Positions 3,571 through 55,058 of a stretch of DNA of 64,000 bases are shown here, one piece after another. The notes beneath the pieces are model-generated. The model did not search any database, was not told where the DNA came from, and saw nothing but the letters and a program-made list of their open reading frames with translations. Position 1 is the stretch's first letter. Every line of letters starts with the position of its first letter. The DNA is taken from contig NZ_CP150662.1 of the NCBI RefSeq assembly GCF_038024125.1, positions 2,125,501 to 2,189,500 on the forward strand, written 5' to 3'. This DNA comes from Polaribacter gangjinensis. Its GTDB lineage: Bacteria; Bacteroidota; Bacteroidia; Flavobacteriales; Flavobacteriaceae. Both the position numbers and the translations under genes were made by a program.

Positions 3571-3603
3571 GAAGTCGAAAATATAAAAGAACCCAAAGTG
3601 AAT

Positions 3604-5517
3604 ATGTTTACAAAATCTATCAGAAAATTCATTACCATTTTAGCAGCATTTGCAGTACTTGGAAGTTATGGACAAAAAGTGTTGAACATGAAAGATTTCA
3701 ACATTGAAGGTGTAAAAGATGTTACACCAATTGTTGTTGAAGCGCTTGAAAAATGTAAAAAAGAAGGCTACAGCTCGTTGGTATTTCCCAAAGGGACGTA
3801 TCATTTTTACCCAACTTTTGCTCCTGAATTTTTCTCTGAAATTACCAACAACGATAACGGATTGAAAAGAACGTCTTTTCCATTAATAGGTTTTCGTGAT
3901 TTTGTAGTGGATGGAAATGGATCTGATTTCATTTATCATGGTAAAATAATTCCGTTTATCATCGAGGAAAGCAGCAATGTAAAAGTGACCAATATCAATA
4001 TAGATTGGGAAGTGCCATTCACACTTGAAGGATTGGTTGTTGCCAATGATGAAACAAAAAACACTTTTGATATTGAGATAAAAACACCTTACGTGGTTGA
4101 ATTTGAACGTTTGTATTTGTCTTTGGAAAGAGAAGATTCTCCTTATGAGCGCAAATATGGAAAACGATTTGCGATGTGGGAACATTACAATTTGGAAATT
4201 GCTGAAAATATTTTCTGGGACCCAAAAACCATGGCGCCATTGTATAACACTCAATTATATCATTTGCCAGAAAGAGGTGTAAAAGCGGAAGAAATCAAAA
4301 AAGGAGTTGTTCGTCTTTCTGCCAAAATGAAAAAATTACCCCCAATTGGTTCCATATTTGTTTCCAAAGGCGATTATTTGCAAAACAGAACGAGTCCAGC
4401 ATTTCGCGTTTTCAAATCAAAAAATTTAGAATTTAAAAATGTCAATGTATACCATGCTGGCGCTATGGGCTTGATTGCAGAAAGGTCAGAAGATATTACC
4501 TTGGATGGTTTTAATGTGGTGTTGAGAAAAGGTTCAGGAAGAATGGTAACGACCACTGCTGATGCCACTCACTTTTGCAATGTAAAAGGCACTGTTGTCA
4601 TCAAAAATTCGATTTTCGAAAATATGTTGGATGATGCTACCAATGTTCATGGAACTTATTTGCGTGTAAATAAAATAGTTGATGACTATACCTTGGCTGT
4701 AGAAACCTACCATCCACATCAAAATGGTTATTTGTTTGGAGAAGAAGGAGATTCCGTAAAAGTGGTTAGTCAAAAAAATTTACAATACACTACAGAAGCT
4801 TTGATTTTGAAAAAAGTGAAACGTGTGAACGAAAAAATTTCCTTCATCACTTTTGACAAACCTATTACAGGAAAAGTGGAAATTTATGATGGAGTTGAAA
4901 ATATTTCATGGCATGCAGCTGCAATCATAGAAAACAATATTGTTCGCAATAACAGAGCTCGAAGTTTTTTAATTACGACCCCTAGAAAAGTGGTGGTTCG
5001 CAACAATCAATTGTCCTCTCAAATGGCGACTTTCAGTATTACTGGAGATTTAGGATTGTGGAATGAATCAGGTCCAATTGTTGATTTGTTGATTGAAAAT
5101 AATGTTATTGACAATTCAGTTTTTGGAGGAAATGGCGCGCAAGCAATTTTCTTTATAGAGCCTCAATACCCTGAAAAGAAAAATAAGGAAGGGATATACA
5201 GCAAAAATATCACCATCAGAAATAATATCATCAAAACTTTTGATAGCTCTATTCTTGTGGCTGCTTCTATTGATGGATTGACTTTTGAAAACAATCAAAT
5301 CTTCCAAACAGATACCTATGCACCTATTTTTCCGAATGCAAAAAATATCAGTATTGAAAATTGTACTAATGTGGTTTTTAAAGGAAATACCTATAAAAAA
5401 ATTGATGGAAAAGAAGTGACCATTAGTATTGATGAAAAATCATCGAATGTCAAAATTGATAAAGGAGATGCATTCAGTATTGCTTCAAAAAAGATGAAAT
5501 CAACCTCTAAAAAGTAA
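3604..5517 (+). CDS. GH110-type exo-alpha-1,3-galactosidase, copy 2
   Basis: This second tandem GH110 copy closely resembles its neighbours over its whole length. The ATG at 3604 was chosen over the GTG two codons upstream (3598); it gives a clean signal peptide ending near LGSYGQ and a 637-residue protein. The putative catalytic acids are kept: Asp320 in ADATHF and Asp343-Asp344 in ENMLDDATN. It lies 33 bp after copy 1 and 54 bp before the chosen start of copy 3, so it should be on the same transcript. In the N-terminal half it agrees more with copy 3 (YVVEFERLYLSLE), while around residues 370-460 it agrees more with copy 1 (EEGDSVKVVSQKN). This points to recombination between copies. The three enzymes may differ in tolerance for sulfate or branching next to the cleaved galactose (inference). 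Confidence 0.85.
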   Translation: MFTKSIRKFITILAAFAVLGSYGQKVLNMKDFNIEGVKDVTPIVVEALEKCKKEGYSSLVFPKGTYHFYPTFAPEFFSEITNNDNGLKRTSFPLIGFRDFVVDGNGSDFIYHGKIIPFIIEESSNVKVTNINIDWEVPFTLEGLVVANDETKNTFDIEIKTPYVVEFERLYLSLEREDSPYERKYGKRFAMWEHYNLEIAENIFWDPKTMAPLYNTQLYHLPERGVKAEEIKKGVVRLSAKMKKLPPIGSIFVSKGDYLQNRTSPAFRVFKSKNLEFKNVNVYHAGAMGLIAERSEDITLDGFNVVLRKGSGRMVTTTADATHFCNVKGTVVIKNSIFENMLDDATNVHGTYLRVNKIVDDYTLAVETYHPHQNGYLFGEEGDSVKVVSQKNLQYTTEALILKKVKRVNEKISFITFDKPITGKVEIYDGVENISWHAAAIIENNIVRNNRARSFLITTPRKVVVRNNQLSSQMATFSITGDLGLWNESGPIVDLLIENNVIDNSVFGGNGAQAIFFIEPQYPEKKNKEGIYSKNITIRNNIIKTFDSSILVAASIDGLTFENNQIFQTDTYAPIFPNAKNISIENCTNVVFKGNTYKKIDGKEVTISIDEKSSNVKIDKGDAFSIASKKMKSTSKK

Positions 5518-5571
5518 CAGTTTTCGATGCAAAAAACTCATAAAACAAAACGATATACAAAAACATCATTG

Positions 5572-7461
5572 ATGAAACCTATCAAAATAGTCATAGCATT
5601 CATAGCCTTTTTTTCAGTAATGACGAGTTATGGTCAAAAAGTATTGAATATGAAAGATTTCAACATTGAAGGCATTAAAGACGTTACTCCAATTGTTGTG
5701 AAAGCTTTAGAAAAATGCAAAGAAGAAGGAATCAGTACCTTGATTTTCCCAAAAGGAACCTATCATTTTTACCCAACTTTTGCTCCTGAATTTTTCTGTG
5801 AAATCGTAAATAACGACAATGGATTGAAAAGAACCGCTTTTCCGCTCATCGATTTTCATGATTTTGTTGTAGATGGAAATGGATCTGATTTCATATTTCA
5901 TGGCAAGATGATTCCTTTTATCATTGAAAAAAGTTCGAATATCAAAATCACAAATCTAAGCATTGATTGGGAAGTTCCATTTACGTTGGAAGGGTTGGTT
6001 GTTGCCAATGATTCAGAAAAAAACACTTTTGATATCGAAGTAAAAACGCCTTATGTGGTTGAATTCGAACGCTTGTATTTGTCATTAGAAAGAGAAGACT
6101 CTCCTTATGAGCGCAAATTTGGAAAACGATTTGCCATGTGGGAACATGACAATTTAGAAATTGCGGAAAGCATTCTTTGGGATCCAAAAACAATGGCGCC
6201 AATGTATCATACAAATCAATATGATACGCATGAAAGAGGCGTGAAAGCAGAAGAATTGAAAAAAGGGTTGATACGATTGAAAGCCGAAATGAAGAAATTA
6301 CCTCCAATTGGGTCCATTTTTGTTTCCAAAGGAGATTATCTGCAAAACAGAACAAGTCCTGCTGTCCGAATTGTAACATCAAAAAATCTAACCTTCAAAG
6401 ATGTGAATGTGCATCATGCTGGTTCTATGGGGTTGATTGCTGAAAGATCCGAAAATATTACGTTGGATGGTTTTAATGTGGTGCTCAAAAAGGGTTCTGG
6501 AAGAATGATTACTTCAACAGCTGATGCTACGCATTTTTGCAATGTAAAAGGAAACATCACCATCAAAAACTGTACGTTCGAAAATATGTTGGATGATGGT
6601 ACAAACATTCATGGAACCTATGTTCGTGTGAATAAAATAATCGATGAATATACCTTAGCTGTAGAAACCTATCATCCACATCAAAATGGTTTTTTATTTG
6701 GTGAAGAAGGCGATTTGGTCCAAATTTTAGATCAAAAAAATCTACAGATTACGAGTGAGCCCATGATTTTGAAAAAAGTGAAACGAATAAATGAGAAAAT
6801 CTCCTACCTCACTTTTGACAAACCAATTACTGGAAAAGTGGAAATTTATGACGGAATTGAAAATATTTCTTGGCAACCAACAGCTGTTATTGAAAACAAT
6901 GTAATTCGCAATAACAGGGCGCGAAGCATGATTTTGAAAACTCGTAAAAAAGTGGTGGTTCGCAACAATCATTTGTCATCACAAATGGCAAGTTTTAGAA
7001 TCACAGGCGATTTGGGTTTGTGGAATGAATCAAGTCCAAGCAATGATTTGCTAATAGAAAACAATGTAATAGAAAACTGTGTGTATGGAGGAAATGGCGC
7101 GCAAGCTATTTTTTTAATTGACCCACAATATGTGGACAAGAAAAATTTTGAAGGAAAATACAGCAAAAATATTACCATTAGAAATAACATCATTAAAACT
7201 TTTGATAGCTCCATTTTAGTGGCGATGTCTGTAGATGGTTTGACTTTTGAAAACAATCAAATTATTCAAACGGACACTTTTAAACCTATTTTTCCTGATG
7301 CAGAGAATGTGCAAATTATAAATTGTAACAATGTTCTGATAAAAGGAAACACCTATCGAAAAATAGACGGAAAACAAACAACGATAACAATCGATCAAAA
7401 ATCAACGAATGTGAAAGTTGTCAAAGGAGATGCTTTTAGTAAAAAATCATCTAAAAAATAA
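5572..7461 (+). CDS. GH110-type exo-alpha-1,3-galactosidase, copy 3
   Basis: This is the third tandem GH110 copy. The frame also has an ATG at 5527, but starting at 5572 (MKPIKIVIAFIAFFSV) gives a normal signal peptide ending near TSYGQ and a 629-residue protein, so the 15-residue basic extension is probably not translated. Asp318 and Asp341-Asp342 (MLDDGTN) preserve the catalytic spacing. It is the most different of the three at sites likely to face the substrate: YHTNQYD replaces YNTQLY, WQPTAVIEN replaces WHAAAIIEN, and KTRKK replaces STPRK or TTPRK. These changes suggest a different preference within one glycan. It is followed after 57 bp by the SusC gene, probably in the same operon. Confidence 0.83.
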   Translation: MKPIKIVIAFIAFFSVMTSYGQKVLNMKDFNIEGIKDVTPIVVKALEKCKEEGISTLIFPKGTYHFYPTFAPEFFCEIVNNDNGLKRTAFPLIDFHDFVVDGNGSDFIFHGKMIPFIIEKSSNIKITNLSIDWEVPFTLEGLVVANDSEKNTFDIEVKTPYVVEFERLYLSLEREDSPYERKFGKRFAMWEHDNLEIAESILWDPKTMAPMYHTNQYDTHERGVKAEELKKGLIRLKAEMKKLPPIGSIFVSKGDYLQNRTSPAVRIVTSKNLTFKDVNVHHAGSMGLIAERSENITLDGFNVVLKKGSGRMITSTADATHFCNVKGNITIKNCTFENMLDDGTNIHGTYVRVNKIIDEYTLAVETYHPHQNGFLFGEEGDLVQILDQKNLQITSEPMILKKVKRINEKISYLTFDKPITGKVEIYDGIENISWQPTAVIENNVIRNNRARSMILKTRKKVVVRNNHLSSQMASFRITGDLGLWNESSPSNDLLIENNVIENCVYGGNGAQAIFLIDPQYVDKKNFEGKYSKNITIRNNIIKTFDSSILVAMSVDGLTFENNQIIQTDTFKPIFPDAENVQIINCNNVLIKGNTYRKIDGKQTTITIDQKSTNVKVVKGDAFSKKSSKK

Positions 7462-7518: not shown

Positions 7519-10500
7519 ATGAATAAAAGATTATTAATTTTTCTGCTATGTGCATTTAGTTTTCAACTAGCAAATGCCCAAAAATCGATTTCTGGAAAAG
7601 TAACAGACAACAGTGGGTACGCACTTCCAGGAGTTTCAATTCAAATCAAAGGCACAAGTATTGGTGCCATTACTAATTTTGATGGAGAATATAGTTTAAC
7701 AGTTCCAAATGATGATGTTTTTATTGTATTCAGTTATTTAGGAATGACAACTAGAGAGTTTAAATACATTGGTCAGCCTACTTTAAATGTTGTTTTAGAA
7801 GAAGAGGCAAGTAGATTGAATGAAATTGTCATTGTAGGATATAGTGCTGTAAAAAAAGAGGACATTACAGGTTCTATCAGTTCTATCAATGATAGTTTGA
7901 TCGGTGTTTCAAAAACTCCCAATTTATTCGATGCTATTCAAGGAAGAATTGCGGGTGTAAACATCGTATCTCAATCAGGTGAACCAGGAGCTGGGGTTAA
8001 TTTCAATGTTCGAGGTTCCAATTCCGTTTTCAGTGCAGGTTCTCCATTATTCATCATTGACGGTGTTCAAATAGACGTGAACGAAAGTGAAGTGGCAAGT
8101 TCAGGTGTTGGTTCATCAGCAAGAATGGACCCCTTAGCTACCATCAATCCAATGGATATCGAATCTATGGAAGTTTTGAAAGACGCCTCTGCTACCGCAA
8201 TTTACGGTTCAAGAGGTGCGAATGGTGTGATCATCATTACCACAAAAGGTGGAAAAAAAGGAAAATTAAATTTAGAGTACACGACTTCTCTAGGTTTTTC
8301 CGAGGCAGCCAACAGAATAAATGTTATCAATCCGGAAGAGTATTTGATCTACAGAAATTTAAGAGATCCTGGCAATGACTTTACCACTTTAGCAGATGGA
8401 ACTCCAAGAGATTTTTCAAATATTAGCAGCAGAAATTGGCAAAATGAAGCATTAAGAACAGCTGCTACTCAAAATCATTTTATCTCTGTAAGAGGAGCAA
8501 GTGATAAATCAGACTATGCTGCCAGTTTAGGGTTGGTTGATCAAGAAGGAATTATCGATAAGAACAATTATCGTAAATACAATGCGAGTGTTAAAATCAC
8601 ACATCAACAAACGGAAAAATTAAAATTAGGATTCACTATGAATTCTGCTTTTACTGAGTTAACAGGTGTTGCCAATAGTGGTGGTGGTGGAGATGAATTC
8701 AATGGAGTTGTGCAGTTTATGGTTATTTCTAATCCTTGGGAATTACCAGATTTGTCAGATCAAGATCAGTTTGGAAACACAAACTTTATTTCACCATTGT
8801 CTTTAATCAATGAAGCTGAAAAGAAAATTCGTTTTACAAGAACATTTGGTTCACTATTTAGTGAATATGCTTTTTCCAAACACTTAAAAATGCGAACTCA
8901 AATAGGAACTACTTTCACAGGGTCAAAATTACAAGAATTCCATAGTTCGAATAGTTTATTTGGTTTCCGTTGGAACGGTAGAGCAGTAATAAGACAAGTA
9001 GAAACAAATTCTTACAACTTATCTCATACCTTTCAATTTTCAAAAACAATCAATAAAAAGCACTACGTGTTTGCTCTTGCTGGTGCAGAGGTAGCAAGGT
9101 ATATGTATGAAGCCTTTTTCAATGATGTTACAGGTTTCGAAAATCAATCTTTAGGATTCAATAATATTGGTATTGGTCAAGTGTTTAATGATTTTGGTAC
9201 TGAGAGACTTCCTTCTAATAGAATTTCGTATTTCTCAAATGTCAATTATACTTTAAAAGGGAAATATTTATTTACAGCCAATTTTAGAGCAGATGCTTCT
9301 GATCGTTTTGGAGCAAAAAACAGATGGGGATTTTTCCCAGGAGCTGCATTTGCATGGAATGCTCATAAAGAAAAGTTTATTAAAGACATCCCTCAAATCA
9401 ATCAGTTAAAATTGCGTGCTAGTTATGGGCAAACAGGAAATGAGAGAATACCTCAAGCGGCACGTTTTGGTGGAATGGAAAACGCGTATTACGCAAGTAA
9501 TGACCAGTTAAATTTTGGATTGGCGCCAAGTTCACTTGAAAATACAGCGTTAAAATGGGAGACAACCACTCAGTTTGATGCAGGGTTGGATATCGGTCTT
9601 TTTAAAGATAGAATTCATATTACTGCAGATTATTATAACAAGCAAACTACTGATATGTTGATCAGAGCACTTGTCCCTGCTCAATCTGGATTCAATGCGC
9701 AATGGCAAAATTTGGGCGCAATAGAAAATAAAGGTTTTGAGTTTACTTTAAGTACTGTAAACATCAGTAAGTCTAATTTTAGATGGACAACCGATTTCAA
9801 CATCAGTTTCAATAGAAATAAAATAAAGGATTTAGGGAATGTTGAATTTATTCCTACAGTAATTCCTGGGGGATGGATTACCAATCCAGGAAGAGTAATT
9901 GTTGGTCAACCAATTGGAACCATGTATGGATATGTTTTTGACGGCATTCATCAAGAAGGAAATGCAGAAGGCGCTGTGCCCGGAACCATGAAATACAGGG
10001 ATTTAAATGGAGATGGTTTGATTGATGATGCGAATGATAGAACTATCATTGGAGATTCAAATCCATTGCATATAGGAGGTTTAAACAACTCTTTTTCATA
10101 TAAAAACTTTACATTCTCCTTTTTCTTTCAATGGAGTTATGGAAACGAAGTATTCAATGCAGCAAAACTTAGAACAAACGGTTTGCAGCCTTTTATGAAC
10201 ATAACAAGAGATTATTATGAAAATGCTTGGACACCAGAAAATCAGTCAAATATCGCACCAGCTTTTGGTAGAGTTGATCAAGTTCCTTCAAGTTATTTTG
10301 TAGAAGATGCATCATTTTTACGACTAAAAACCGTAAATTTCTCGTATGATGTTCCAAAAGAAATATTCCAGAATCGTGCGATCAGCGGAATTTCATTGTT
10401 TTTATCAGCGAATAATTTATTTACAATTACAGACTACACTGGATTTGATCCAGAGGTAAGTTCAAACAATCAATTGTTGCCAGGATTTGAAAGATTCTCT

Positions 10501-10548
10501 TATCCAAGAGCAAGAACAATCACTTTAGGTTTAACTATTAAATTATAA
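7519..10548 (+). CDS. SusC-like TonB-dependent outer-membrane transporter
   Basis: The protein has 1009 residues. A signal peptide (to about NAQ, residue 21) is followed by a carboxypeptidase-regulatory-like domain (SGKVTDNSGYALPGVSIQIK, about 24-100), the linker LNEIVIVGYSAVKKEDITGS, a plug domain (about 110-230, with NVRGSNSV, FIIDGVQID and the AIYGSRGANGVIIITTK block) and a long TonB-dependent beta-barrel ending in TLGLTIKL. It forms the glycan import pore with the SusD-like lipoprotein encoded 4 bp downstream, taking oligosaccharides into the periplasm with energy from TonB-ExbBD. Its position directly after three GH110 genes implies that the imported glycan carries terminal alpha-galactose. 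Confidence 0.95.
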   Translation: MNKRLLIFLLCAFSFQLANAQKSISGKVTDNSGYALPGVSIQIKGTSIGAITNFDGEYSLTVPNDDVFIVFSYLGMTTREFKYIGQPTLNVVLEEEASRLNEIVIVGYSAVKKEDITGSISSINDSLIGVSKTPNLFDAIQGRIAGVNIVSQSGEPGAGVNFNVRGSNSVFSAGSPLFIIDGVQIDVNESEVASSGVGSSARMDPLATINPMDIESMEVLKDASATAIYGSRGANGVIIITTKGGKKGKLNLEYTTSLGFSEAANRINVINPEEYLIYRNLRDPGNDFTTLADGTPRDFSNISSRNWQNEALRTAATQNHFISVRGASDKSDYAASLGLVDQEGIIDKNNYRKYNASVKITHQQTEKLKLGFTMNSAFTELTGVANSGGGGDEFNGVVQFMVISNPWELPDLSDQDQFGNTNFISPLSLINEAEKKIRFTRTFGSLFSEYAFSKHLKMRTQIGTTFTGSKLQEFHSSNSLFGFRWNGRAVIRQVETNSYNLSHTFQFSKTINKKHYVFALAGAEVARYMYEAFFNDVTGFENQSLGFNNIGIGQVFNDFGTERLPSNRISYFSNVNYTLKGKYLFTANFRADASDRFGAKNRWGFFPGAAFAWNAHKEKFIKDIPQINQLKLRASYGQTGNERIPQAARFGGMENAYYASNDQLNFGLAPSSLENTALKWETTTQFDAGLDIGLFKDRIHITADYYNKQTTDMLIRALVPAQSGFNAQWQNLGAIENKGFEFTLSTVNISKSNFRWTTDFNISFNRNKIKDLGNVEFIPTVIPGGWITNPGRVIVGQPIGTMYGYVFDGIHQEGNAEGAVPGTMKYRDLNGDGLIDDANDRTIIGDSNPLHIGGLNNSFSYKNFTFSFFFQWSYGNEVFNAAKLRTNGLQPFMNITRDYYENAWTPENQSNIAPAFGRVDQVPSSYFVEDASFLRLKTVNFSYDVPKEIFQNRAISGISLFLSANNLFTITDYTGFDPEVSSNNQLLPGFERFSYPRARTITLGLTIKL

Positions 10549-10552: not shown

Positions 10553-12184
10553 ATGAAAAATTTTAAATTTTATTTTACAGTACTGTTTCTATCTGTATTT
10601 ATCATTTCTTGTGATGAAGATATTTTAGATTCACCACCGCTATCTATGGTTACAACAGATAGCTATTATAAAACTCCAGAAGAGGCAGAAATTGCATTGA
10701 CAGGAGTTTACCATATCCTTTCTGCAACTGCTGTTCAAAATTTTGGTAACAATTCAACCTTCTCAAGAAGTTTGATGGTGATGCTTAATGGTGCTACAGA
10801 CGAAGTGCTAGCAGTAAACAACCAATTCGAACCTGAACACAGAGTTTGGGGAAATGGTACATTTACAGCACAAAGTAACTTTGTAAATGAAACTTGGGTA
10901 TTTTTATATTCTGGAATCAGTAGAGCCAATTATTTGATTGACAGAATTGAGGCTATTGAAGGCTTTACAGGCAATAGAAAAAATGAAATCATTGCTGAAG
11001 CTAGATTCATGAGAGGATTTTATCACATGATTTTATCAATGATGCATGGTGGTATTCCTGTGTATGATGGTGTAGGTCAAGACATCACCAAACCTAGAAG
11101 CACCATTCAAGAAGTGTATGATTTAATTTTGGCGGATTATAAATTTGCCTACGAAACATTACAAGACAGAGCTCAAGTCCAAGGAAGAGCGAATAAATGG
11201 ACTGCTGCAGGATTTTTAGCAAAAGCACATACCTATTTGGCAAGTGCAAAAAACTCTGGATTGAATGGTTTTATTGATATCAATAGTTTTGATTGGGTAG
11301 ATAGTGACCAACATTATAGAGAAGCTTTAACGTACACACAAGCGATTGTTTCAAATAGTGGATATGTGTTGATTCCTAGATATGATTATTTGTTTAGAGA
11401 ATCTACCAAGCAACATCAATATCAAGAAACACTATTAGCAGCGGAAGCTAGTACAAGTGCCACTCGCGATGCCATTCACTTATTAGCCAATACATTTTTA
11501 CCTCAAGGAAATCAAAACGTGACTGGAGGAGGTTTTGGATGGTTTCGTCCAACAGATGAATTGCACAAAAAATATGTGGTAGGTGATTTTAGAAGAGATC
11601 ATAATTTGACCGGAAATTTGAATTCAGTTAATAATTTTGAAATGATTGAAGGAGTGAAATATTTTGTGCCAAGAACCCTTCCAAATACCAATCAAGGATA
11701 TTATAGTATAGGAAAATATCGAATGATTGACCCAGCTTTAAAACTGTTGCCAAAATGGGCTTCTACCATGAATTTACCAATTTTAAGATTTGCTGACGTT
11801 TTATTGATGCATGCAGAAGCGCAATATTTTACGGGTAATGAAGCAGGTGCAAGAACTACATTATCAACTATTAGACAAAGAGCAGTAACAGCTGGAACAA
11901 CAGTAACTGCATTAAATGACGCTTATAGAAAAGCCAATTTTGTGGATGAGCTGTTAGAGGAGCGCTCACGCGAATTGTGTTTTGAAAATTGGAGAAGAAT
12001 TGATTTAGCACGTTTCAATAAATTTGATCAAACCATTAATGGATTATCAACCACAGAAGGTTTTTACAACAGAGTAACTGTGCCAATTATTCAAACTAAC
12101 TGGAGACCAGAGCGTGTTTGGTTCCCTATACCAATCATTCAAATAGATTTAAATAAAAACTTAGTTCCAAATCAAGGATATTAA
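10553..12184 (+). CDS. SusD-like glycan-binding outer-membrane lipoprotein (RagB/SusD family)
   Basis: The protein has 543 residues. Its N-terminus is a lipoprotein signal with the lipobox FIISC, so the mature protein starts at Cys20 followed by DEDILDSPP. It shows the SusD layout: DSYYKTPEEAEIALTGVY at the N-terminus, a TPR-like helical half (NEIIAEARFMRGFYH, ANKWTAAGFLAKAHTYLA), and the C-terminal RFADVLLMHAEAQYFTGNEAGA plus LLEERSRELCFENWRRIDLARF block. It caps the SusC transporter on the cell surface and captures oligosaccharides. It ends the first module; the second module has its own promoter 30-110 bp downstream. Confidence 0.95.
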   Translation: MKNFKFYFTVLFLSVFIISCDEDILDSPPLSMVTTDSYYKTPEEAEIALTGVYHILSATAVQNFGNNSTFSRSLMVMLNGATDEVLAVNNQFEPEHRVWGNGTFTAQSNFVNETWVFLYSGISRANYLIDRIEAIEGFTGNRKNEIIAEARFMRGFYHMILSMMHGGIPVYDGVGQDITKPRSTIQEVYDLILADYKFAYETLQDRAQVQGRANKWTAAGFLAKAHTYLASAKNSGLNGFIDINSFDWVDSDQHYREALTYTQAIVSNSGYVLIPRYDYLFRESTKQHQYQETLLAAEASTSATRDAIHLLANTFLPQGNQNVTGGGFGWFRPTDELHKKYVVGDFRRDHNLTGNLNSVNNFEMIEGVKYFVPRTLPNTNQGYYSIGKYRMIDPALKLLPKWASTMNLPILRFADVLLMHAEAQYFTGNEAGARTTLSTIRQRAVTAGTTVTALNDAYRKANFVDELLEERSRELCFENWRRIDLARFNKFDQTINGLSTTEGFYNRVTVPIIQTNWRPERVWFPIPIIQIDLNKNLVPNQGY

Positions 12185-12347: not shown

Positions 12348-13628
12348 ATGAAAAAAAATTACCTTTTATTATTACTATTATTGATTAATACAGTATTATT
12401 TTCTCAAAATATTGATTTCACTAACAATGCTGGAACGGGAGATAAACTTTGGTCAACTGCAACAAACTGGACTCCGAATGGTGTTCCAAGTTCAGCAAGC
12501 ATAGTTCGATTACCATTGATTGTTGAATCATTAGTAGATGCAGATTTTACAATCAAACAAATTCTTGTACCCTTTGGAACTTCAGGAGATGTTCCTGTTG
12601 GCGGAACTAATACCGTAACTATTAATGTTGCAGTTGCCAATGCAGTTGCTATTGATAATGCCTCTAATAATGATATCAAATTAATTTTTAATGGAAAAGT
12701 AACTATCAATAATTCTGCAGGTTTTTCAAATATGAGAAATAGTAATGGAACAGGAAATTCCATTGAATTTGCAACTGGCTCAACACTTAAAATTTCAACT
12801 GGTTTTCAGCCTTCTGAAGGGTCAAGTAACGACTTTTTCTTTAATGGAAAAATTGAAGGAACTGCTAATTTACGATTTGGTGCCAACACAACTTCTACAT
12901 TTGGAAACACAGTATCAAATACAGGTTATACAGGTGAGTTGGTTCAGTTATTGAATTCCTCTATTATTGTAAACACTGCTGATGATGTTGTTTTTTATGA
13001 CGGATTAAAAATACAAGTAAATGGAAACAATTCTTCAGCTACTTTAAATGGCGAAAATGTTTTTAAAAGTGGAATTACAGTTGGTGGAACAAATACATAT
13101 ACATTCAACGTAAATAAAAATCAAAGTGCCATGACGAACATCATTTTTCAAGGTGGTGGAACGTTAAATTTGGTAGTTGATAATGCTGTAACAAATTTAT
13201 CTTTTGCGAATAATTCAGCGAATCCTTGGTTAACAGGAACTGTAAACATCACAGGGTTTAAAAATGGTGTGATCCGTTTTGGAACAGACAATACTGGACT
13301 AACAGCACAACAATTATCTCAAATCAAAGCAACTGGTATCACTGCTTTTGCATTGGATAGCGAAGGTTATTTGATTGATGCAGCAACAGCATCTGTAAAC
13401 GATTTTGAAGAAAATACCATCAATCCAATTGCATATCCAACAATTTCTTCTGATATAATCAACTTTAAGGAAGCGCAAAATAATGTAAAAGTGTTTGATG
13501 TAAATGGTAGAGTTATTTTACACAATACAGCTAAAAATCAAACAGTTTTAACGGTTTCTTCATTACCAAGAGGTCTTTATTTTGTTATGTTTGACAATAA
13601 AAAAGTTGAAAAAATAATTAAACAATAG
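12348..13628 (+). CDS. Secreted T9SS-sorted protein of unknown function, first gene of PUL module two
   Basis: The protein has 426 residues. A signal peptide (MKKNYLLLLLLLINTVLFSQ) leads into the phrase WSTATNWTPNGVPSSAS and a long, Asn/Thr/Val-rich stretch with regularly spaced hydrophobic residues (TVTINVAVANAVAIDN, SATLNGENVF). This looks like a beta-helix or beta-roll as seen in adhesin-like surface proteins. The last 70 residues form a type IX secretion sorting domain (VKVFDVNGRVILHN, SLPRGLYFVMFDNKKVEKIIK), so it should be exported to the cell surface. I recognise no catalytic motif. As the first gene behind promoter B and before the GH110-like and sulfatase genes, a glycan-binding surface role is possible, but that is inference only. 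Confidence 0.75.
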   Translation: MKKNYLLLLLLLINTVLFSQNIDFTNNAGTGDKLWSTATNWTPNGVPSSASIVRLPLIVESLVDADFTIKQILVPFGTSGDVPVGGTNTVTINVAVANAVAIDNASNNDIKLIFNGKVTINNSAGFSNMRNSNGTGNSIEFATGSTLKISTGFQPSEGSSNDFFFNGKIEGTANLRFGANTTSTFGNTVSNTGYTGELVQLLNSSIIVNTADDVVFYDGLKIQVNGNNSSATLNGENVFKSGITVGGTNTYTFNVNKNQSAMTNIIFQGGGTLNLVVDNAVTNLSFANNSANPWLTGTVNITGFKNGVIRFGTDNTGLTAQQLSQIKATGITAFALDSEGYLIDAATASVNDFEENTINPIAYPTISSDIINFKEAQNNVKVFDVNGRVILHNTAKNQTVLTVSSLPRGLYFVMFDNKKVEKIIKQ

Positions 13629-13650: not shown

Positions 13651-16329
13651 ATGAAAACCAATTGGGTATTTTTATTTTTGATTTCTAGCTTGGGTATTTT
13701 TGCTCAATTTGCACCCCAACCAAGTTTTTTTAGAACCCAAAGACAAATGCCTTTGGTAGAACTTACTACAACTAGCACCATTCTTGTTTCAAGTTATGGT
13801 GCTGTTGTTAACGATGGTATAGATGATACTGCTGCTATACAAAGTGCCATCAATGCTGCAGTAAGCTCAGGAACGCTACAAAATCCTGTAAGATTATTGT
13901 TTGATAGTGGTACGTATGATATTAAAGCTACTTCTGCTGCAAGAGATTCACATTTACTGAGTATGATTGATGCGAAAGGCGTCCTTTTTGATGGTAATGG
14001 TGCGCTTTTTTTGATTCATAATCCTGTTTTGGGTTTTATGTCAACCTTAAGATGTGCCAATACAATTATCAAAGACTTTACGATTGATTATGCAACATTG
14101 CCTTTTTCACAAGGCAAAGTTACCAAGGTTGATGCAGCCAATGGATTTTTTGAATTTGTGGTTGATGATGGTTTTCCATTACCTGTAGAACAGCATTTTA
14201 TTGATTCTCCTCAACGTTGGGGAATGTTTAAAAACGCTAAAGGAGGTATTAAAGAAGGTACGCGTAATTTAATTTCTCACAATCGATTTTTTGAACCAAT
14301 AGGTTCAAGAAAATATAGATATGGTGGCCAAAGTGAAAACAGTTTAATTAACGCTGAAGTTGGAGATTATTTTGTGCATATTGCTAGATATAATGGTGCA
14401 ACAGCAATTTTAAATTCTGGAGGTAAAAATCTTACATATATCAATGTAGTTGTTCACGCAAGTCCTTCAGGAGGTTTTAATTCAAGAGATTCAGAAGAGT
14501 GGAATGTGATCAATTGCCAATTAAAACTAAAAGAAGGTCGTGTGCATACTACAAATGCGGATGCTATGCACATCAATGGCAGTAAATTTGGGCCATGGGT
14601 TGAAGGTTGTCTTTTTGAAGGGTTTTCTGATGATGGTATGAATTTAAAGTACACCAAAAAAATAATAAAAGAAGTTCATAGTCCCACTCAAATAACCGTT
14701 CAATTTACTACAAAAGTTGGTGAAGTATTAGAATTTTACAATCCAAGAGATGGCATTTATTTAGGTACTGCAACTATAACTAACGTGCAAAATTTAGGTA
14801 GTAATCTTTTTAAAATCACCTTATCTAATGCAATTAATATCACTTCTGTAAATGAAATAGATCATCAATCAACAGATAAAGCTTATGTAGAAAGTAGCTC
14901 TAATGAATCTTTTATTTTTAGAAACAATATTATTCGAAATTCAAGAAGATATGGTATTTTAATACAAAGTAAATATGCGTTGATTGAAAATAATTTGTTT
15001 CAAAATTTAAGTGGGGCAGCTATTAGAATTGAAAATGGTGTTGATTGGGGTGAAGGTTTTAGAGCTGATAATATTGAAATCAAAAATAATAGAATAGAAA
15101 ACTGTGGTTACGATACTGGCTATATTGAAGAAAGTAACTCCGCCGCAATTTCAATTGATTTTGCAAAATTGAGCACTCCATGTTCAATAAATACAACTTG
15201 GTGTGGAACAACTAGTGCAACTTGGCAAGCGCATAGCAACATCCGAATTTTAGACAATACAATTTCATATAACAAAAGAGGATTATATCTTAAAAACATC
15301 AATGGTTTAACACTTAAAAACAATTTTATTTGCCATAGAGATGAAGATATCACTTTAACAAACAATCAAGACCCAATTGAGCAAACCATTTTTAACACAG
15401 GTAACCAAAATATTGAAGGGTATAATTTATCTACACCAACTGCAAATTTGCATTTTTTGTTAAATGAACAAAGCTCACAAAATATTGCTAATACTGGGTC
15501 TAATACAACAGTTTCTTTACAAATTAACACACAAGGTGGAGGTGAGATAACTAAAGGATTTTTTGATTCAGAAATTGGCAATGCTTACAAAATAAATACG
15601 ACTAATAATGGTTCGCTAAACCTGATAAATGCAAACGACAATTCATCATATTCCCCTGCAACACAAGGTGCTGCAAGATCATTTGCCTTTTGGGTAAAAC
15701 CAGAAGAAGCCATTTTTCAAACCTTTATGTATAGTGGAGGTCCAACAGATGGCGAAGTCTTTACCATTCAAATGGAAGATAGTGGAGTGGTAAGAGTTAC
15801 AGATAACAATCAAAATTTTGTTAGAATGTCAGATATGCCTTTAAATATTGGTAGCTGGAATCATGTTGTCATCACAGTGCCTACAAACAATACGCTGAAT
15901 AGTATCCAATTTTACAAAAATGGAGTTGCATCAACAGAAACCTATTCAGGCTCAAATCCACTGATTAATACTGCCACTAACGGAATTAATTTTTTTCCAA
16001 GATATAAAGGTTTAGCCAGTGATATCCGTTATTTTGATTATAAATTGTGCAGTAGTGAAGTAGAAAGTGTGTTTAATGATAGAAGAAATACGTTGTCAAT
16101 TGATGAAAACCCAATTGATGAAACGCTAAAAGTTTATCCAACTTTAGTAACATCATCTGTATTTTTCAGCAAACCTATTCAATCAGTAAAAGTGATCAAT
16201 ATGTTAGGAAAAACTTTTGTTTCAAAATCGAAAGTCAATCTTTCAGAATTGGATTTATCACATTTATCCTCTGGTGTTTACATCTTACACATCAATCAAA
16301 ATCAAATGGTTAAAATTTTAAAGAAGTAA
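13651..16329 (+). CDS. Divergent GH110-like beta-helix enzyme with LamG-like module and T9SS sorting domain
   Basis: The protein has 892 residues: signal peptide, then a right-handed beta-helix (about 40-590) starting VSSYGAVVNDGIDDTAAIQSA, then a concanavalin/LamG-like module (about 605-800, FWVKPEEAIFQTFMYSGG and GSWNHVVITVP), then a T9SS sorting domain (VYPTLVTSSVF through LSSGVYILHINQNQMVKILKK). Within the helix, ADAMHINGSKFGPW and FEGFSDDGMN place Asp304 and Asp327-Asp328 at the same +23/+24 spacing as the three GH110 copies. The later RNNIIRNSRRYGILIQ aligns with their NNRARS region. I therefore see a distant GH110 relative, likely an exo-acting galactosidase on the cell surface, with the LamG-like part as a binding module. 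Activity is inferred. Confidence 0.72.
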   Translation: MKTNWVFLFLISSLGIFAQFAPQPSFFRTQRQMPLVELTTTSTILVSSYGAVVNDGIDDTAAIQSAINAAVSSGTLQNPVRLLFDSGTYDIKATSAARDSHLLSMIDAKGVLFDGNGALFLIHNPVLGFMSTLRCANTIIKDFTIDYATLPFSQGKVTKVDAANGFFEFVVDDGFPLPVEQHFIDSPQRWGMFKNAKGGIKEGTRNLISHNRFFEPIGSRKYRYGGQSENSLINAEVGDYFVHIARYNGATAILNSGGKNLTYINVVVHASPSGGFNSRDSEEWNVINCQLKLKEGRVHTTNADAMHINGSKFGPWVEGCLFEGFSDDGMNLKYTKKIIKEVHSPTQITVQFTTKVGEVLEFYNPRDGIYLGTATITNVQNLGSNLFKITLSNAINITSVNEIDHQSTDKAYVESSSNESFIFRNNIIRNSRRYGILIQSKYALIENNLFQNLSGAAIRIENGVDWGEGFRADNIEIKNNRIENCGYDTGYIEESNSAAISIDFAKLSTPCSINTTWCGTTSATWQAHSNIRILDNTISYNKRGLYLKNINGLTLKNNFICHRDEDITLTNNQDPIEQTIFNTGNQNIEGYNLSTPTANLHFLLNEQSSQNIANTGSNTTVSLQINTQGGGEITKGFFDSEIGNAYKINTTNNGSLNLINANDNSSYSPATQGAARSFAFWVKPEEAIFQTFMYSGGPTDGEVFTIQMEDSGVVRVTDNNQNFVRMSDMPLNIGSWNHVVITVPTNNTLNSIQFYKNGVASTETYSGSNPLINTATNGINFFPRYKGLASDIRYFDYKLCSSEVESVFNDRRNTLSIDENPIDETLKVYPTLVTSSVFFSKPIQSVKVINMLGKTFVSKSKVNLSELDLSHLSSGVYILHINQNQMVKILKK

Positions 16330-16332
16330 CAA

Positions 16333-18087
16333 ATGAAAAAAATTTCTTTTATCATATTTCTTTTGAGCATTGCAATAAATGCCCAATATCAATTTAAATT
16401 ACCCGAACATTTTAGAACAAAAAGAGAGTTACCTCTTATTGATTTTCCTACAAGTGTTGATGCCATATTAACTGATTTTGGTGCCATACCAAATGATGGT
16501 AAAGACGATACAGAGGCAATTTTTAAATCATTAGAATATGCTAGAAAATTAAGTTTATTTGGTTCTAATGTTAGAATCGTTTTTGCTAAAGGGAAGTATG
16601 ATTTATTTACAAATAAAAACAACAACCATTTAATTGAAGTAAAAAACCTAAAAAATGTAATTATTGATGGTAATGGCGCAGAAATTACCATTCATGATCC
16701 TTTAAAAGGTTTCATGTCAATTTTTAAATGCAACAATATCATCGTAAAAAACTTATACATAGACTATGACCCACTTCCTTTTACACAAGGAAAAATAACG
16801 GCTATAAATTTAGAAGACAAAACATTTGAGCTAAAAATTGATGAAGGTTTTCCATATTTAAATCATACCATGTTTCAAGAATCGAATCAAGTTTGGGGCA
16901 TGTTAATGGATCCTAAAATTCCAGGGAAATTAAAAGATGGCGCTCCCAATTTATTTGCTTCTAAGCAATTTGAAGAAATTGAAAAAGGACTTTTTAAAGT
17001 GAAAATAAATGCCATTAATTTACTAAAGGCTATGGAAGTTGGTGATTCTTATGTTCATATAGCTCGTTTTAATGGTAAATCTATTTTTTCGACATCGTTT
17101 AGTAAAAATATTACCTATTTAGATGTAACAAGTTATTCAAGTCCTGCAGGCACCTATCAAGCGCACAATATGGAAGAGTGGAATGTAATTAACTGTAAAA
17201 TAAAATTAAAACCTGGCAGGTTACATAGTGCAAATGCTGATAGTTTTCACGTAAATGGGGGTAAATTTGGTCCTTGGATAGAAAATGGATATTTTGAAGG
17301 ATATAGTGATGACGCTGTCAATTTAAAGTATGCAAAAAGAAGTATCATAAAACAACTATCACCAACAGAAATTGTTATCAAACATACCTTAGAGGTTAAT
17401 GAAGTAATCAAAATTTTTAATCCAAGAGATGGTGAGTTAATTGGAACTTATAAAATTTTAGAAGCAAAACCAGATGGTTTACCTAATGTAAAAATTACGC
17501 TTGATAAACCAATAACTGTTCAATTACAAGTGGGTGAAGAAACCAATGATGATGTAGCTTATGTTGATTCGCAATCAAACGAATCATTTGTAATTAGAAA
17601 CAACACATTTAGAAATGCCCGTAGATATGGCATATTAATTCAAGCCACAAATGGCTTAATAGAGCGCAATATTTTTGAAAATTTAAGCCAATCTGCCATT
17701 ACGATTTACAATGGGGTTGATTGGGGTGAAGGATTTACAGCGAATAATATAGTTATCAACCAAAATATTTTTAATAACTGCGGATACGATTCTGCTTACT
17801 TGTCAGATTATGATGCAGCTACCATAAAAATGAGTGTTAAAAAGTTAAAAAATAAAGTTCCTAACGGAAAATGGTATGGAGTAACAACTGCAAATTGGCA
17901 AGCACTAGAAAACATAACGATAACAAACAATACTTTTTCATATAATAAAAAAGCCTTGTCTATAGAGTCTACAGTAAATGCGGTTATAAAATCGAATATG
18001 TTTATTAAAAATTCAAAAGACTTATCAAAACAGAGTGAACTTATTTTTGAAAATAACAATACCAATCTAATTTTCGAAAATAAATAA
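16333..18087 (+). CDS. Divergent GH110-like right-handed beta-helix enzyme
   Basis: The protein has 584 residues with a signal peptide (MKKISFIIFLLSIAINAQ) and no C-terminal sorting or LamG module. It is clearly a paralogue of the catalytic half of the preceding gene: both share FRTxRxxPL, ADxxHxNGxKFGPW, YARRYGILIQ-like blocks and NGVDWGEGF. Asp303 followed by Asp326-Asp327 (FEGYSDDAVN) repeats the GH110 acid spacing. It is probably periplasmic and may trim what the surface paralogue releases or exposes. It starts 3 bp after its neighbour and precedes the first sulfatase by 15 bp, so the genes should be co-transcribed. It could be annotated simply as a pectate-lyase-fold protein; the acid spacing is why I prefer GH110-like. 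Confidence 0.72.
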   Translation: MKKISFIIFLLSIAINAQYQFKLPEHFRTKRELPLIDFPTSVDAILTDFGAIPNDGKDDTEAIFKSLEYARKLSLFGSNVRIVFAKGKYDLFTNKNNNHLIEVKNLKNVIIDGNGAEITIHDPLKGFMSIFKCNNIIVKNLYIDYDPLPFTQGKITAINLEDKTFELKIDEGFPYLNHTMFQESNQVWGMLMDPKIPGKLKDGAPNLFASKQFEEIEKGLFKVKINAINLLKAMEVGDSYVHIARFNGKSIFSTSFSKNITYLDVTSYSSPAGTYQAHNMEEWNVINCKIKLKPGRLHSANADSFHVNGGKFGPWIENGYFEGYSDDAVNLKYAKRSIIKQLSPTEIVIKHTLEVNEVIKIFNPRDGELIGTYKILEAKPDGLPNVKITLDKPITVQLQVGEETNDDVAYVDSQSNESFVIRNNTFRNARRYGILIQATNGLIERNIFENLSQSAITIYNGVDWGEGFTANNIVINQNIFNNCGYDSAYLSDYDAATIKMSVKKLKNKVPNGKWYGVTTANWQALENITITNNTFSYNKKALSIESTVNAVIKSNMFIKNSKDLSKQSELIFENNNTNLIFENK

Positions 18088-18102: not shown

Positions 18103-19497
18103 ATGAAGTTAAGGTATGCTATTTTCACATTTATAGTCTTACTATTCATTTTTTCGAGTTTTAATAAAACTATACATCCAAATAAAACAGTAGCAACGTC
18201 ATCAAAACCAAATATCATTTTGTTTTTTGTGGATGATTTAGGTTGGTCAGATTTGGGTTTTAGAAATCCTGTTTTTAAAACTCCCAATATTGATGCTTTG
18301 GCAAAAGCCGGAATTAATTTCAATCAAGCTTACATTGCAAGTCCGACTTGTAGTCCAAGTAGAGCCACGCTTTTAACAGGGCAACATCCTGCAAGATTAA
18401 AAATGGTGCGTCATATTCCTGCTGGTAAAAATTTTGGTTTTGATCAATTTGATAGAACGGATATCGAATTTCATAAATTACCCACAGATCCTGCTCAATT
18501 TCCTTCAAGAAATTGGTTGCCTCTAGAAAACACCACTTATGCAGAAGCTTTAGCTGAGTTAGGTTACTACAATTTATTCGTTGGCAAATGGCATTTAGGT
18601 CACGAAAAATTTCATCCTATAAAACAAGGATTTCAAAAACAAATAGGCACATCCAATTTTGGGCATCCAAAATCTTATTATCCACCCTATTTTAAGCAGG
18701 ACACTATTTTTTCGGATACAAAGAACACGTATCTCACAGATAAATTAACCAATGAAGCTGTTGATTTTATTTCGGATTATAAAAGTGATTCTCCATTTAT
18801 GTTGACTTTTTCCTATTATTCTGTGCACAGTCCTCACATTGGGAGAAAAGATTGGGTAACCCATTACCAACAAAAAGGTTTAGATGATAAGTATGCAAAT
18901 TATGCTGCTATGGTTTCAACGATGGATGAATCTGTAGGAAAAGTTTTAAAAGCAGTTAAAGAAAAAGGCATTGAAAAAGAAACCATCATCATTTTCTTAT
19001 CAGATCAAGGAGGATATTTTGAGAATTCACCATTGAGAGGTGGAAAAATGTCAGAAACTTTATTTGAAGGCGGAGCAAGAGTACCATTTTTTGTGCATTG
19101 GCCTGGAGTTACAAAATCCAATTCAACCAATAATTCAGTAGTGCAGTCTACAGATATTTTTCCAACATTGGTTGAAATTGCAGGTGGTAAAGTTTCAAAA
19201 TACAAAGAATTAGACGGAATTTCTTTATTGACAACCATCAAAAAGAATGATCATTTGAAACGTGAACCCATTTTTGGATACAGAGCTTACGAAGATTTAT
19301 ATGTTTCAGTCAGAGAAGGAGATTGGAAATTGTTGGCATACAGAAGTGGCAAGCTAGAACTTTTTAACATCGCAAAAGATGCATCAGAAAAAGACGAAAT
19401 CTCTAAAAATCATCCTGAAAAAGTGAAACAAATGGTAGCAAAATTGGTTCAATGGGAAAAAGAAATGGATGTTTCATCATATTCAGGAATCAAATAA
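18103..19497 (+). CDS. Secreted formylglycine-dependent sulfatase (S1 family)
   Basis: The 464-residue protein has an N-terminal signal/anchor, the sulfatase opening PNIILFFVDDLGWSDLG with the metal-binding Asp44-Asp45, and the maturation motif C-S-P-S-R at Cys83 (TCSPSRATLLTGQHPAR), where Cys becomes formylglycine. Later blocks VGKWHLGH, FFENSPLRGGK-like (YFENSPLRGGKMSETLFEGG) and STDIFPTLVEIAG are typical of arylsulfatase-type S1 enzymes. It removes a sulfate ester from the glycan, probably in the periplasm. The matching maturase gene is not in this window. I cannot assign a SulfAtlas subfamily by eye. Together with the GH110 genes it implies a sulfated galactose-containing substrate. Confidence 0.93.
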   Translation: MKLRYAIFTFIVLLFIFSSFNKTIHPNKTVATSSKPNIILFFVDDLGWSDLGFRNPVFKTPNIDALAKAGINFNQAYIASPTCSPSRATLLTGQHPARLKMVRHIPAGKNFGFDQFDRTDIEFHKLPTDPAQFPSRNWLPLENTTYAEALAELGYYNLFVGKWHLGHEKFHPIKQGFQKQIGTSNFGHPKSYYPPYFKQDTIFSDTKNTYLTDKLTNEAVDFISDYKSDSPFMLTFSYYSVHSPHIGRKDWVTHYQQKGLDDKYANYAAMVSTMDESVGKVLKAVKEKGIEKETIIIFLSDQGGYFENSPLRGGKMSETLFEGGARVPFFVHWPGVTKSNSTNNSVVQSTDIFPTLVEIAGGKVSKYKELDGISLLTTIKKNDHLKREPIFGYRAYEDLYVSVREGDWKLLAYRSGKLELFNIAKDASEKDEISKNHPEKVKQMVAKLVQWEKEMDVSSYSGIK

Positions 19498-19503: not shown

Positions 19504-21105
19504 ATGAAAACAAAATTTATTTATACAGCCAGCATTTTTTTATTGATAGGAATTAGCAGTATTTTTTTCTTTAATTTCAAAAAAAAAGAAACTGAAAAAA
19601 AACCAAATATTTTGTTTTGTATTGCTGATGATGCTACTTGGAAACATTTGAGCGCTTATGGCTCTAAATGGGTAAATACACCTGCCTTTGATAGAATTGC
19701 AAACGAAGGATTGCTTTTTCAAAATGCATATACACCTAATGCCAAATGTGGTCCGTCAAGAGCAATTGTTTTAACAGGAAGAAATACGTGGCAGTTAGAA
19801 GAAGCTGGAAATCATTTAGCTTTTTTTCCTCAAAAATTTAAAACATATCCAGAAGCACTTGCTGAAAATGGGTATCAAGTTGGCTTTACAGGAAAAGGTT
19901 GGGCACCAGGAACAGCTTTAAATGCTGATGGCACAAAAAGAGAATTATTGGTAAAACCTTACAATAAAATCAAAAAAGAAACACCTACAAAGGGAATTAA
20001 TGCTGTTGATTATGTAGCTAATTTCAGGTCTTTTTTAAAAGATAAAAAATCAGATACTCCATTTTGTTTTTGGTATGGAGGCCATGAACCTCATCGTTTT
20101 TATGAATACGGAACTGGCGTAAGTGTTGGAAAGAAAAAGTTATCTCAAATTGATTCCGTTTTTTCATACTGGCCACAATCAGAAACAGTTAAAAATGATA
20201 TGTTAGATTATGCTTTTGAGTTGGAATATTTTGACCAACAATTAGGCGGAATTTTAAAAGTTTTAGAAGAAAATGGCGAATTAGAGAATACGATTATTGT
20301 AGTAACTTCCGATAACGGCATGCCATTTCCAAGAGTAAAAGGTCAAAGTTATGAGCATTCCAATCACATGCCATTAGCAATCATGTGGAAAAATGGCATC
20401 AAAAATCCTGGGAGAATCATAGAAGATTACGTTAGTTTTATTGATTTTGCACCAACTTTTATGGAGGTTGCAGGTGTTGATTCAAAATCGCTAAAAATGC
20501 AGTCCATTCAAGGAAAAAGTTTGGTTCCTTATTTCAATTCTGATAAAACAAAACTCACTCCAACCAAAGAAAACTATGTTTTATTAGGTCAAGAAAGACA
20601 TGATGCTGGCAGACCTAAAACGGTTGGTTATCCAATTAGAGGTATTGTAAAAGACGGATTTTTGTACTTGAAAAATTATGAAAATGATCGTTGGCCAGCT
20701 GGAAATCCTGAAACTGGCTACACAAATACTGATGGAAGTCCAACCAAAACAGAGATTCTTAATTTGAATAGAAGTGGTGAAAATCATGAATTTTGGAAAA
20801 TCAATTTTGGAAAACATCCAAAAGAAGAGCTATATCAAATTACTATTGATGAAGATTGCATGAATAATTTGGCTGATAAAAAGCAATTCCAAAAAATTAA
20901 AAATGAGTTGAGAAAACTCTTAGAATCAAATTTAAAGAAACAAGGAGATCCAAGAATGTTTGGAAATGGAGCTATTTTTGATAGTTATCCTCCAAATAAC
21001 GGAGCAAATTTATATGAAAAATATATGAATGGGGAGAAAGTAAATACAGGATGGATTAACGATTCTGATTTTGAGAAGAAAGATTTTAAAATCAAAGACA
21101 AATAA
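19504..21105 (+). CDS. Secreted formylglycine-dependent sulfatase (S1 family), second
   Basis: The 533-residue protein has one N-terminal hydrophobic segment (about 9-24), the core KPNILFCIADDATWKHL with metal-binding Asp42-Asp43, and Cys82 in the maturation motif KCGPSRAIVLTGRN. Further sulfatase blocks are GYQVGFTGKGWAPG, VVTSDNGMPFPRVKG and YVSFIDFAPTFMEVAGV. The HLSAYGSKWVNTP start resembles the sulfohydrolase-like branch of the S1 family rather than the arylsulfatase-like branch of the preceding gene, so the two enzymes probably take different sulfate positions. It is the last gene of the array: it follows its neighbour after 6 bp and is followed by a strong hairpin at 21121. Confidence 0.92.
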   Translation: MKTKFIYTASIFLLIGISSIFFFNFKKKETEKKPNILFCIADDATWKHLSAYGSKWVNTPAFDRIANEGLLFQNAYTPNAKCGPSRAIVLTGRNTWQLEEAGNHLAFFPQKFKTYPEALAENGYQVGFTGKGWAPGTALNADGTKRELLVKPYNKIKKETPTKGINAVDYVANFRSFLKDKKSDTPFCFWYGGHEPHRFYEYGTGVSVGKKKLSQIDSVFSYWPQSETVKNDMLDYAFELEYFDQQLGGILKVLEENGELENTIIVVTSDNGMPFPRVKGQSYEHSNHMPLAIMWKNGIKNPGRIIEDYVSFIDFAPTFMEVAGVDSKSLKMQSIQGKSLVPYFNSDKTKLTPTKENYVLLGQERHDAGRPKTVGYPIRGIVKDGFLYLKNYENDRWPAGNPETGYTNTDGSPTKTEILNLNRSGENHEFWKINFGKHPKEELYQITIDEDCMNNLADKKQFQKIKNELRKLLESNLKKQGDPRMFGNGAIFDSYPPNNGANLYEKYMNGEKVNTGWINDSDFEKKDFKIKDK

Positions 21106-27222: not shown

Positions 27223-27243
27223 TTCAAGTCAAAAGTACGTTTT

Positions 27244-28301: not shown

Positions 28302-28319
28302 TTCGTAAATATAAAAAAC

Positions 28320-29621: not shown

Positions 29622-29633
29622 TTTGTAAGCAAA

Positions 29634-55046: not shown

Positions 55047-55058
55047 TTCAAGTTTTTT

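Follow-up and report, generated by a model that had tools for sequence, protein, structure and literature searches.

We addressed two adjacent genes, DIV_A and DIV_B, in a 64,000-nucleotide stretch of the Polaribacter gangjinensis genome (the window), which is part of one 2.94 Mb contig; the two genes lie among tandem copies of glycoside hydrolase family 110 (GH110), transport genes, and sulfatase genes (table 1). Both encode beta-helix proteins built like GH110 enzymes. As judged from sequence comparison, the DIV proteins form a sister clade of GH110 with an altered sugar pocket, which is unnamed in the literature that we searched.

Homology and Fold of DIV_A and DIV_B

The catalytic acids are readily recognized in both proteins. 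DIV_A carries the motif A-D304-A-M-H together with D327-D328, and DIV_B carries A-D303-S-F-H together with D326-D327, at the residue numbers reported for A-D-x-x-H and D-D in an earlier note on this DNA; the acids of the three window GH110s are D320/343/344, D322/345/346, and D333/356/357, so that the 23/24 spacing is found in all five proteins. The same note had described DIV_A and DIV_B as unlike GH110 overall, which was wrong. They are 43% identical to each other over 565 columns, and BLASTP aligned them with the three window GH110s over ~500-610 columns at 22-24% identity (E 3e-13 to 1e-22). DIV and GH110 matched profile to profile with probability 100 and E 5e-48 over 509 columns, and the acids aligned with no gap between them. 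Because both proteins are homologous to GH110 over their full length, chance spacing of the acids was ruled out. At E 0.1, all seven Protein Data Bank (PDB) sequence matches of DIV_A were GH110 entries; at E 1, seven of the ten matches of DIV_B were GH110, and the remaining three were Cas9 pieces (E 0.5-0.7). The best PDB sequence match of both proteins was AmGH110A (PDB 8pvs), which, like PpaGal (9i4f) and AgaBb (8yk1-3), is a blood group B alpha-1,3-galactosidase. With a profile of 24 DIV proteins, 18 sequences were found at E 1; nine GH110 sequences matched at E 4e-29 to 1.5e-15, followed by non-GH110 beta-helix proteins at E 1.6e-4 or worse.

GH110 enzymes are described in a passage of PMC12002104 as having a beta-helix core into which two small beta-barrels are inserted, and this arrangement was seen in the predicted model of DIV_B (mean predicted local distance difference test score [pLDDT] 94.9; predicted template modeling score [pTM] 0.93) and in its fold matches. 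The top 15 Foldseek rows for this model were all GH110 (E 1.4e-30 to 7.4e-25), AmGH110A, PpaGal, and AgaBb among them, and the next row stood at 1.1e-8; the comparison by Foldseek and VIA concerns the DIV_B model and the 50 rows shown, and families outside those rows are not excluded. In VIA, 510 residues of the model were superposed at 2.7 A on GH110B (9beu_B), and 501-521 residues aligned to GH110 chains versus 281-353 for the non-GH110 rows shown. The Pfam GLAA-B barrel models PF23763 and PF23764 matched all three window GH110s above cutoff and had no match in DIV_A or DIV_B at E 0.01; the barrels nevertheless appear to be common to DIV and GH110, because VIA aligned so many residues. For DIV_A (pLDDT 88.5, pTM 0.76), the first ~580 residues of the predicted model have the order of elements seen in DIV_B and GH110. 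In the NCBIfam scan, DIV_B had no match, and DIV_A matched models for the sorting tail and for a beta-helix repeat, with one further, weak match below cutoff.

A clear best match to a different characterized family, which by the earlier note would have refuted its proposal, did not occur: GH110 was best both by sequence and by Foldseek. Whether the acids meet in one pocket was probed indirectly, through the superposition of the DIV_B model on GH110B and the gap-free alignment of the acids. Membership in another beta-helix family was rejected because none matched better in Pfam, PDB sequence, profile, or Foldseek searches. GH28, GH87, and other beta-helix hydrolases of the clan GH-N type have the right-handed beta-helix in common with DIV, and their acid arrangement is related according to a passage of PMC7939477, but their Foldseek matches were much weaker than those of GH110, and VIA aligned far fewer residues to them. 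The GH28 model PF00295 had no match in either protein at E 0.01. The GH87 chains 5zru and 7c7d were listed for the DIV_B model at E 7e-8, far weaker than GH110, and no GH49 chain was among the 50 Foldseek rows shown, which excludes nothing.

The DIV Clade and Its Sugar Pocket

In a careful tree of 41 rows, rooted at the midpoint, 13 DIV rows were placed on one long branch (support 100/100), whereas the five characterized GH110s, two window copies, and others formed a clade of 12 (99/98); with respect to the DIV branch, 16 further uncharacterized rows sided with GH110. The main split was recovered (Shimodaira-Hasegawa-like approximate likelihood ratio test [SH-aLRT] 94) in a quick 77-row tree, which contained several long branches. 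Recent duplication of the window GH110s as the origin of DIV_A and DIV_B was ruled out by the tree. Against the four near-full-length characterized GH110s, DIV_A and DIV_B scored 48-101 bits at 21-25% identity (21-25% with PdGH110A, 22-24% with PdGH110B, and 22-25% with AmGH110A and PpaGal), whereas those four scored 229-399 bits at 29-38% identity among themselves; the partial AgaBb sequence gave 27-29% identity over 119-134 columns and 47-64 bits. Neither the tree nor the similarities thus placed DIV among the characterized GH110s, and in particular DIV fell outside the clade of AmGH110A, PpaGal, and AgaBb. No description of the DIV clade was found in the open-license PMC literature (preprints not covered), and the one GH110 passage found in PMC13168452 does not contain it.

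The sugar contacts of GH110 are known from PdGH110B (PDB 7jw4, 7jwf, 9beu), an exo-alpha-1,3-galactosidase of Pseudoalteromonas distincta U2A. According to passages of PMC7939477, D344 is the acid and D321 and/or D345 the base; Asn85, Glu488, Asn348, and Glu480 contact the C3, C4, and C6 hydroxyls, Arg265 reaches C2/C3, Arg453 reaches C6 and the ring oxygen, Trp486 is a platform, and Arg451 lies in +1. We compared these positions (numbered as in PdGH110B unless DIV_B is stated) between an alignment of 88 DIV relatives and 50 GH110 rows, of which 40 were drawn from the 120 listed homologs of GH110 copy 3 and the other ten were both Pd enzymes, the window's three copies, and five locus proteins; these 50 rows are mostly close kin of the window copies, and wider uncharacterized groups vary. 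The three catalytic aspartates were each present in 88/88 DIV rows and account for three of only nine invariant columns, and the acid spacing was 23 in 87/88 (22 in L037). Also kept were N348 (85/88), R451 (88/88), W486 (83/88), and E488 (85/88). In contrast, R265 was replaced by Asn, N247 of DIV_B, in 82/88 rows, A452 by Arg in 88/88, and R453 by Tyr in 81/88, E480 was mixed, and the stretch containing Asn85 measured 22-29 residues in all 88 DIV rows versus 37 in all 50 GH110 rows. N85, R265, A452, and R453 were each found in 50/50 GH110 rows, PdGH110A included, and position 480 was Thr in 37/50. In addition, DIV has an N-terminal arm of its own with Arg31 (84/88) and Pro34 (85/88). The galactose binders N85, R265, and R453, which are a feature of GH110, are therefore absent from DIV, and the pocket, as read from the alignment, is rebuilt. 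With the Asn85 loop and the two arginines lost, the -1 site should be more open.

The earlier note had further reported an RNN-x5-R-x-x-G/S-I/L region as matching between DIV and GH110. This motif is present in DIV_A (424) and DIV_B (422) but in none of the three GH110s; in the profile alignment, GH110 N-R-A-R-G falls on DIV [A/S]-R-R-Y-G and RNN does not fall on RNN, so that the motif was off register. Its broader proposal fared better: that DIV and GH110 have one catalytic scaffold in common but differ in the sugar pocket was supported by sequence, profile, tree, and fold, and the residues suggest a changed specificity. Because three of the five features tested for membership in GH110 were lacking, on these sequence criteria we would not file DIV as GH110 despite its GH110-like build.

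Several other groups were noted around the clade. L033-L041 and the Bacteroidales-type loci L043-L070 hold more uncharacterized GH110-like groups, with the three acids kept and other pocket residues. The triad looks changed in the beta-helix relatives L069 (at the same place as L104:354-2027) and L059, which have R-D..W-K and W-D aligned with the acids. A branch of 630-710-amino-acid beta-helix proteins (L019:16152-18287, L101:15687-17819, and L037) lies near the DIV clade; in Pfam, GH28 weakly matches its L101 copy (E 5e-9).

The Locus, Its Conservation, and Its Likely Glycan

Table 1. Positions of the DIV genes, their key residues, and neighboring genes in the window (T9SS, type IX secretion system; aa, amino acids)
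Feature	Position	Strand	Remark
DIV_A	13651..16329	+	892 aa; signal-like N-terminal segment, GH110-like beta-helix enzyme part, LamG-like domain, T9SS tail
DIV_A D304	14560..14562	+	counterpart of PdGH110B D321 (base)
DIV_A D327-D328	14629..14634	+	counterparts of PdGH110B D344 (acid) and D345 (base)
DIV_A R432-R433-Y434	14944..14952	+	aligns to GH110 R-A-R
DIV_A Laminin_G_3 domain	15667..16062	+	aa 673-804, E 1.2e-8 (Pfam)
DIV_A T9SS sorting tail	16108..16317	+	aa 820-889
DIV_B	16333..18087	+	584 aa; GH110-like beta-helix, two inserted barrels predicted at ~aa 150-245 and 335-390
DIV_B D303	17239..17241	+	counterpart of D321
DIV_B D326-D327	17308..17313	+	counterparts of D344 and D345
DIV_B R430-R431-Y432	17620..17628	+	aligns to GH110 R451-A452-R453
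DIV_B W464-x-E466	17722..17730	+	aligns to GH110 W486-x-E488
GH110 copy 1	1660..3570	+	
GH110 copy 2	3598..5517	+	
GH110 copy 3	5527..7461	+	
SusC-like outer membrane transporter	7519..10548	+	
SusD-like lipoprotein	10553..12184	+	
T9SS-sorted protein	12348..13628	+	426 aa, no other domain match; in sister loci, homologs recur next to DIV_A or SusD
S1 sulfatase Sulf1	18103..19497	+	CSPSR (aa 83); closest relative of solved structure, S1_16 kappa-carrageenan sulfatase, E 3e-80
S1 sulfatase Sulf2	19504..21105	+	CGPSR (aa 82); closest relative of solved structure, N-acetylglucosamine-6-sulfatase 5g2v, E 4e-37

The three tandem GH110 copies (1660-7461) are 78-82% identical to one another. They have all tested -1 residues except at position 480, are 34-35% identical to PdGH110A, with Thr at the 6-sulfate position, and the named sources of their closest relatives are mostly Polaribacter. 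To their left lie a long regulator-like gene, by eye a hybrid sensor, which resembles genes beside sister loci, and, just upstream of the window, an S1_15-type sulfatase (by PDB matches). The further solved relatives of Sulf2 include S1_8A (E 4e-26). Ten genes scanned to the right of the locus (21157-36218) were mostly housekeeping. Farther on, ~32 kb from the sulfatases, two adjacent GH53 genes were observed (53373-56099), one with a T9SS tail, and a bacterial alpha-2-macroglobulin of 1839 amino acids is encoded at 56401-61920.

The locus was conserved among the 13 genomes with a core DIV gene that were read (the window's own, G026, L015-L024, and L032). A B-type DIV gene was found in 11/13, the copies of L023 and L024 branching before the A/B split. 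A Sulf2 homolog (at least 50% identity) occurred in the stretch read in 12/13 genomes (all but L020), and a Sulf1 homolog (at least 43%) in 10/13, with a ~50% homolog farther off in two more; GH110 occurred in 11/13, counting two genomes in which it lies farther off on the contig and one in which it is fused to DIV. Four DIV loci hold members of a ~600-700-amino-acid family with 36-66% mutual identity (L119:9641-11683, L121:1643-3739, L017:6230-8047, and L023:12793-14811), which had no Pfam match and, in the three tested, no NCBIfam match, and which may be an enzyme or a binding protein. DIV was rare: at E 1e-30, a match was found in 5/249 Flavobacteriaceae genomes (one, G318, of a distant type), whereas the GH110 barrel was found in 32 of the same genomes, 30 above cutoff; class-wide, 2/396 genomes had a DIV match, the window's own included. 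All four core-DIV genomes carry GH110 and G318 does not, a co-occurrence with hypergeometric p 2.3e-4 (the four) or Fisher p 1e-3 (4/5) when relatedness is ignored. T9SS tails were found, among the matches listed, in 22/31 proteins (P0090-P0120) versus 0/89 (P0001-P0089), and the nine of those 31 that were placed in the 77-row tree all fell in the A branch.

An indication of joint function came from an uncultured Alistipes (L024), which encodes a 1196-amino-acid protein in which a DIV domain (57-585, 34% identical to DIV_B) is followed by a GH110 domain (642-1188, ~34% identical to the window copies). Both domains have D-x22-DD, homologs of both sulfatases lie within 9 kb, and the GH110 half groups with PdGH110A in the 41-row tree (100/99). 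Because the two domain types are fused in one polypeptide, they likely act together on one substrate. PdGH110A (PDB 9beh, 9bev), which shares the fold and acids with DIV, is described in passages of PMC12549532 as an exo-6-sulfo-alpha-galactosidase of the lambda-carrageenan pathway that needs prior 2-O-desulfation; in the same paper, 6-sulfate is given as the target of S1_15 sulfatases. In four DIV loci (G026, L017, L021, and L022), a GH110 is encoded that shares 59-62% identity with PdGH110A and has an Arg at the 6-sulfate position. Genes that on visual inspection resemble galK, galT, and galE adjoin the G045 locus. Cultured bacteria that carry DIV include Kordia periserrulae and Gaetbulibacter saemankumensis. 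Reichenbachiella strain WSW4-B4, which according to passages of PMC10752948 can break down lambda-carrageenan and possesses five GH110 genes, is a possible further carrier. A DIV protein is recorded for Reichenbachiella carrageenanivorans (P0085), which would be this same strain.

No carrageenase or other endo-enzyme was recognized in the DIV loci, GH150 (lambda-carrageenase) not having been searched. GH2 was searched in eight genomes, six with known DIV places and two with a contig not matched; it lay ~9 kb from DIV in G026, ~0.8 Mb away in G000, and on other contigs in G045, G227, G247, and G282, so that no GH2 beta-galactosidase was near the locus in five of the six (other beta-galactosidase families were not searched). 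GH16, examined as a possible link to kappa/iota-carrageenan, was uninformative: it was present in 11/11 DIV genomes, G247 and G344 apparently being a single genome, and in 6/14 controls as well.

Possible Function of the DIV Enzymes

On balance, we lean toward the view that DIV is a sister family of GH110 whose members are inverting alpha-galactoside hydrolases that would share a sulfated galactan substrate with the GH110s but attack residues that the GH110 pocket excludes. D326 (DIV_B numbering) would be the general acid that protonates the leaving oxygen, as in PdGH110B, and D303 and D327 would activate water, with inversion of configuration. The enzymes would cut alpha-galactosyl linkages of the galactan also treated by the neighboring GH110s and sulfatases, and the -1 sugar would, in the simplest options, be a galactose still carrying sulfate or a galactose other than the free chain end. 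We tentatively place DIV_B in the periplasm, together with the sulfatases, and DIV_A would be a second copy, with a LamG-like domain, exported to the cell surface by the T9SS. Both modes of action fit the data. An exo-enzyme for galactose retaining a sulfate is consistent with the B type, which is more constant, has no sorting tail among the matches listed, and has Sulf2 as a neighbor in almost every locus; an endo-enzyme on galactan is consistent with the A-type copies, often T9SS-tailed (22/31 listed), and with the lack of any other recognized endo-enzyme in the loci. Several observations weigh against this view. DIV_A was found in 7/13 genomes and was absent from 6/13; GH110 was not seen in the loci L016 and L023 (2/13), nor among the best matches of the seven distant loci L025-L031, where sulfatase matches were at most 30%. 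Several uncharacterized GH110-like groups also lack N85 and R265 (81-row set), position 480 varies in GH110 as well, and L027-L029, on the DIV side, have lost the counterparts of W486 and E488. Finally, the VIA Z scores overlap, at 31.9-39.2 for GH110 and up to 33.6 for non-GH110 beta-helices, the latter with far fewer residues aligned.

That the pocket changes are mere drift, and that DIV_A and DIV_B are ordinary divergent GH110s, exo-alpha-1,3-galactosidases acting like PdGH110B on unmodified terminal galactose, appears distinctly improbable to us. The fold, the three acids, W486, and E488 are indeed kept, and other GH110-like groups vary in the pocket too; but the changes are fixed, not random (R431 in 88/88 and Y432 in 81/88, DIV_B numbering), and the similarity to characterized GH110s is well under the within-family level. 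Moreover, a further plain copy would bring little, because three GH110s with nearly all -1 residues are already in the window. It is also unlikely, to our judgment, that the scaffold serves another sugar or chemistry, as a glycosidase for 3,6-anhydrogalactose, L-galactose, or a uronic acid, or as a non-hydrolytic beta-helix enzyme. This would agree with the loss of R265, R453, and N85, all readers of galactose O2/O3/O4/O6 in passages of PMC7939477, and beta-helix lyases and epimerases do occur far down the DIV_B fold list; however, none of the three inverting acids varies, many galactose-type enzymes are encoded in the locus, and the domain fused to DIV is a GH110. A carbohydrate-binding or catalytically dead protein could be imagined from the LamG-like domain and T9SS tail of DIV_A and from the changed acids of the more distant relatives L059 and L069, but we regard it as highly improbable, since few positions of the DIV clade are as conserved as the three acids.

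The fold and mechanism of DIV are of a kind already known, and the surprise is moderate. If the sister-family view is correct, a new carbohydrate-active enzyme family would be founded next to GH110, and one inverting scaffold would have been retuned from an undecorated galactose terminus, as in blood group B and alpha-Gal, to decorated marine galactan. More tentatively, and we hold this to be doubtful, DIV could be a new GH family in which the GH110 pocket is opened to an endo-acting or sulfate-accepting site, and could thereby be the missing depolymerase of the sulfated galactan locus; if so, there would be an unrecognized alpha-rich sulfated galactan, or lambda-carrageenan-like polymers would be entered via alpha rather than beta cuts. 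If the sister-family view holds, the lack of a recognized endo-enzyme in the locus may also hint that marine sulfated galactans are turned over by a route, or include a polymer, not yet charted.

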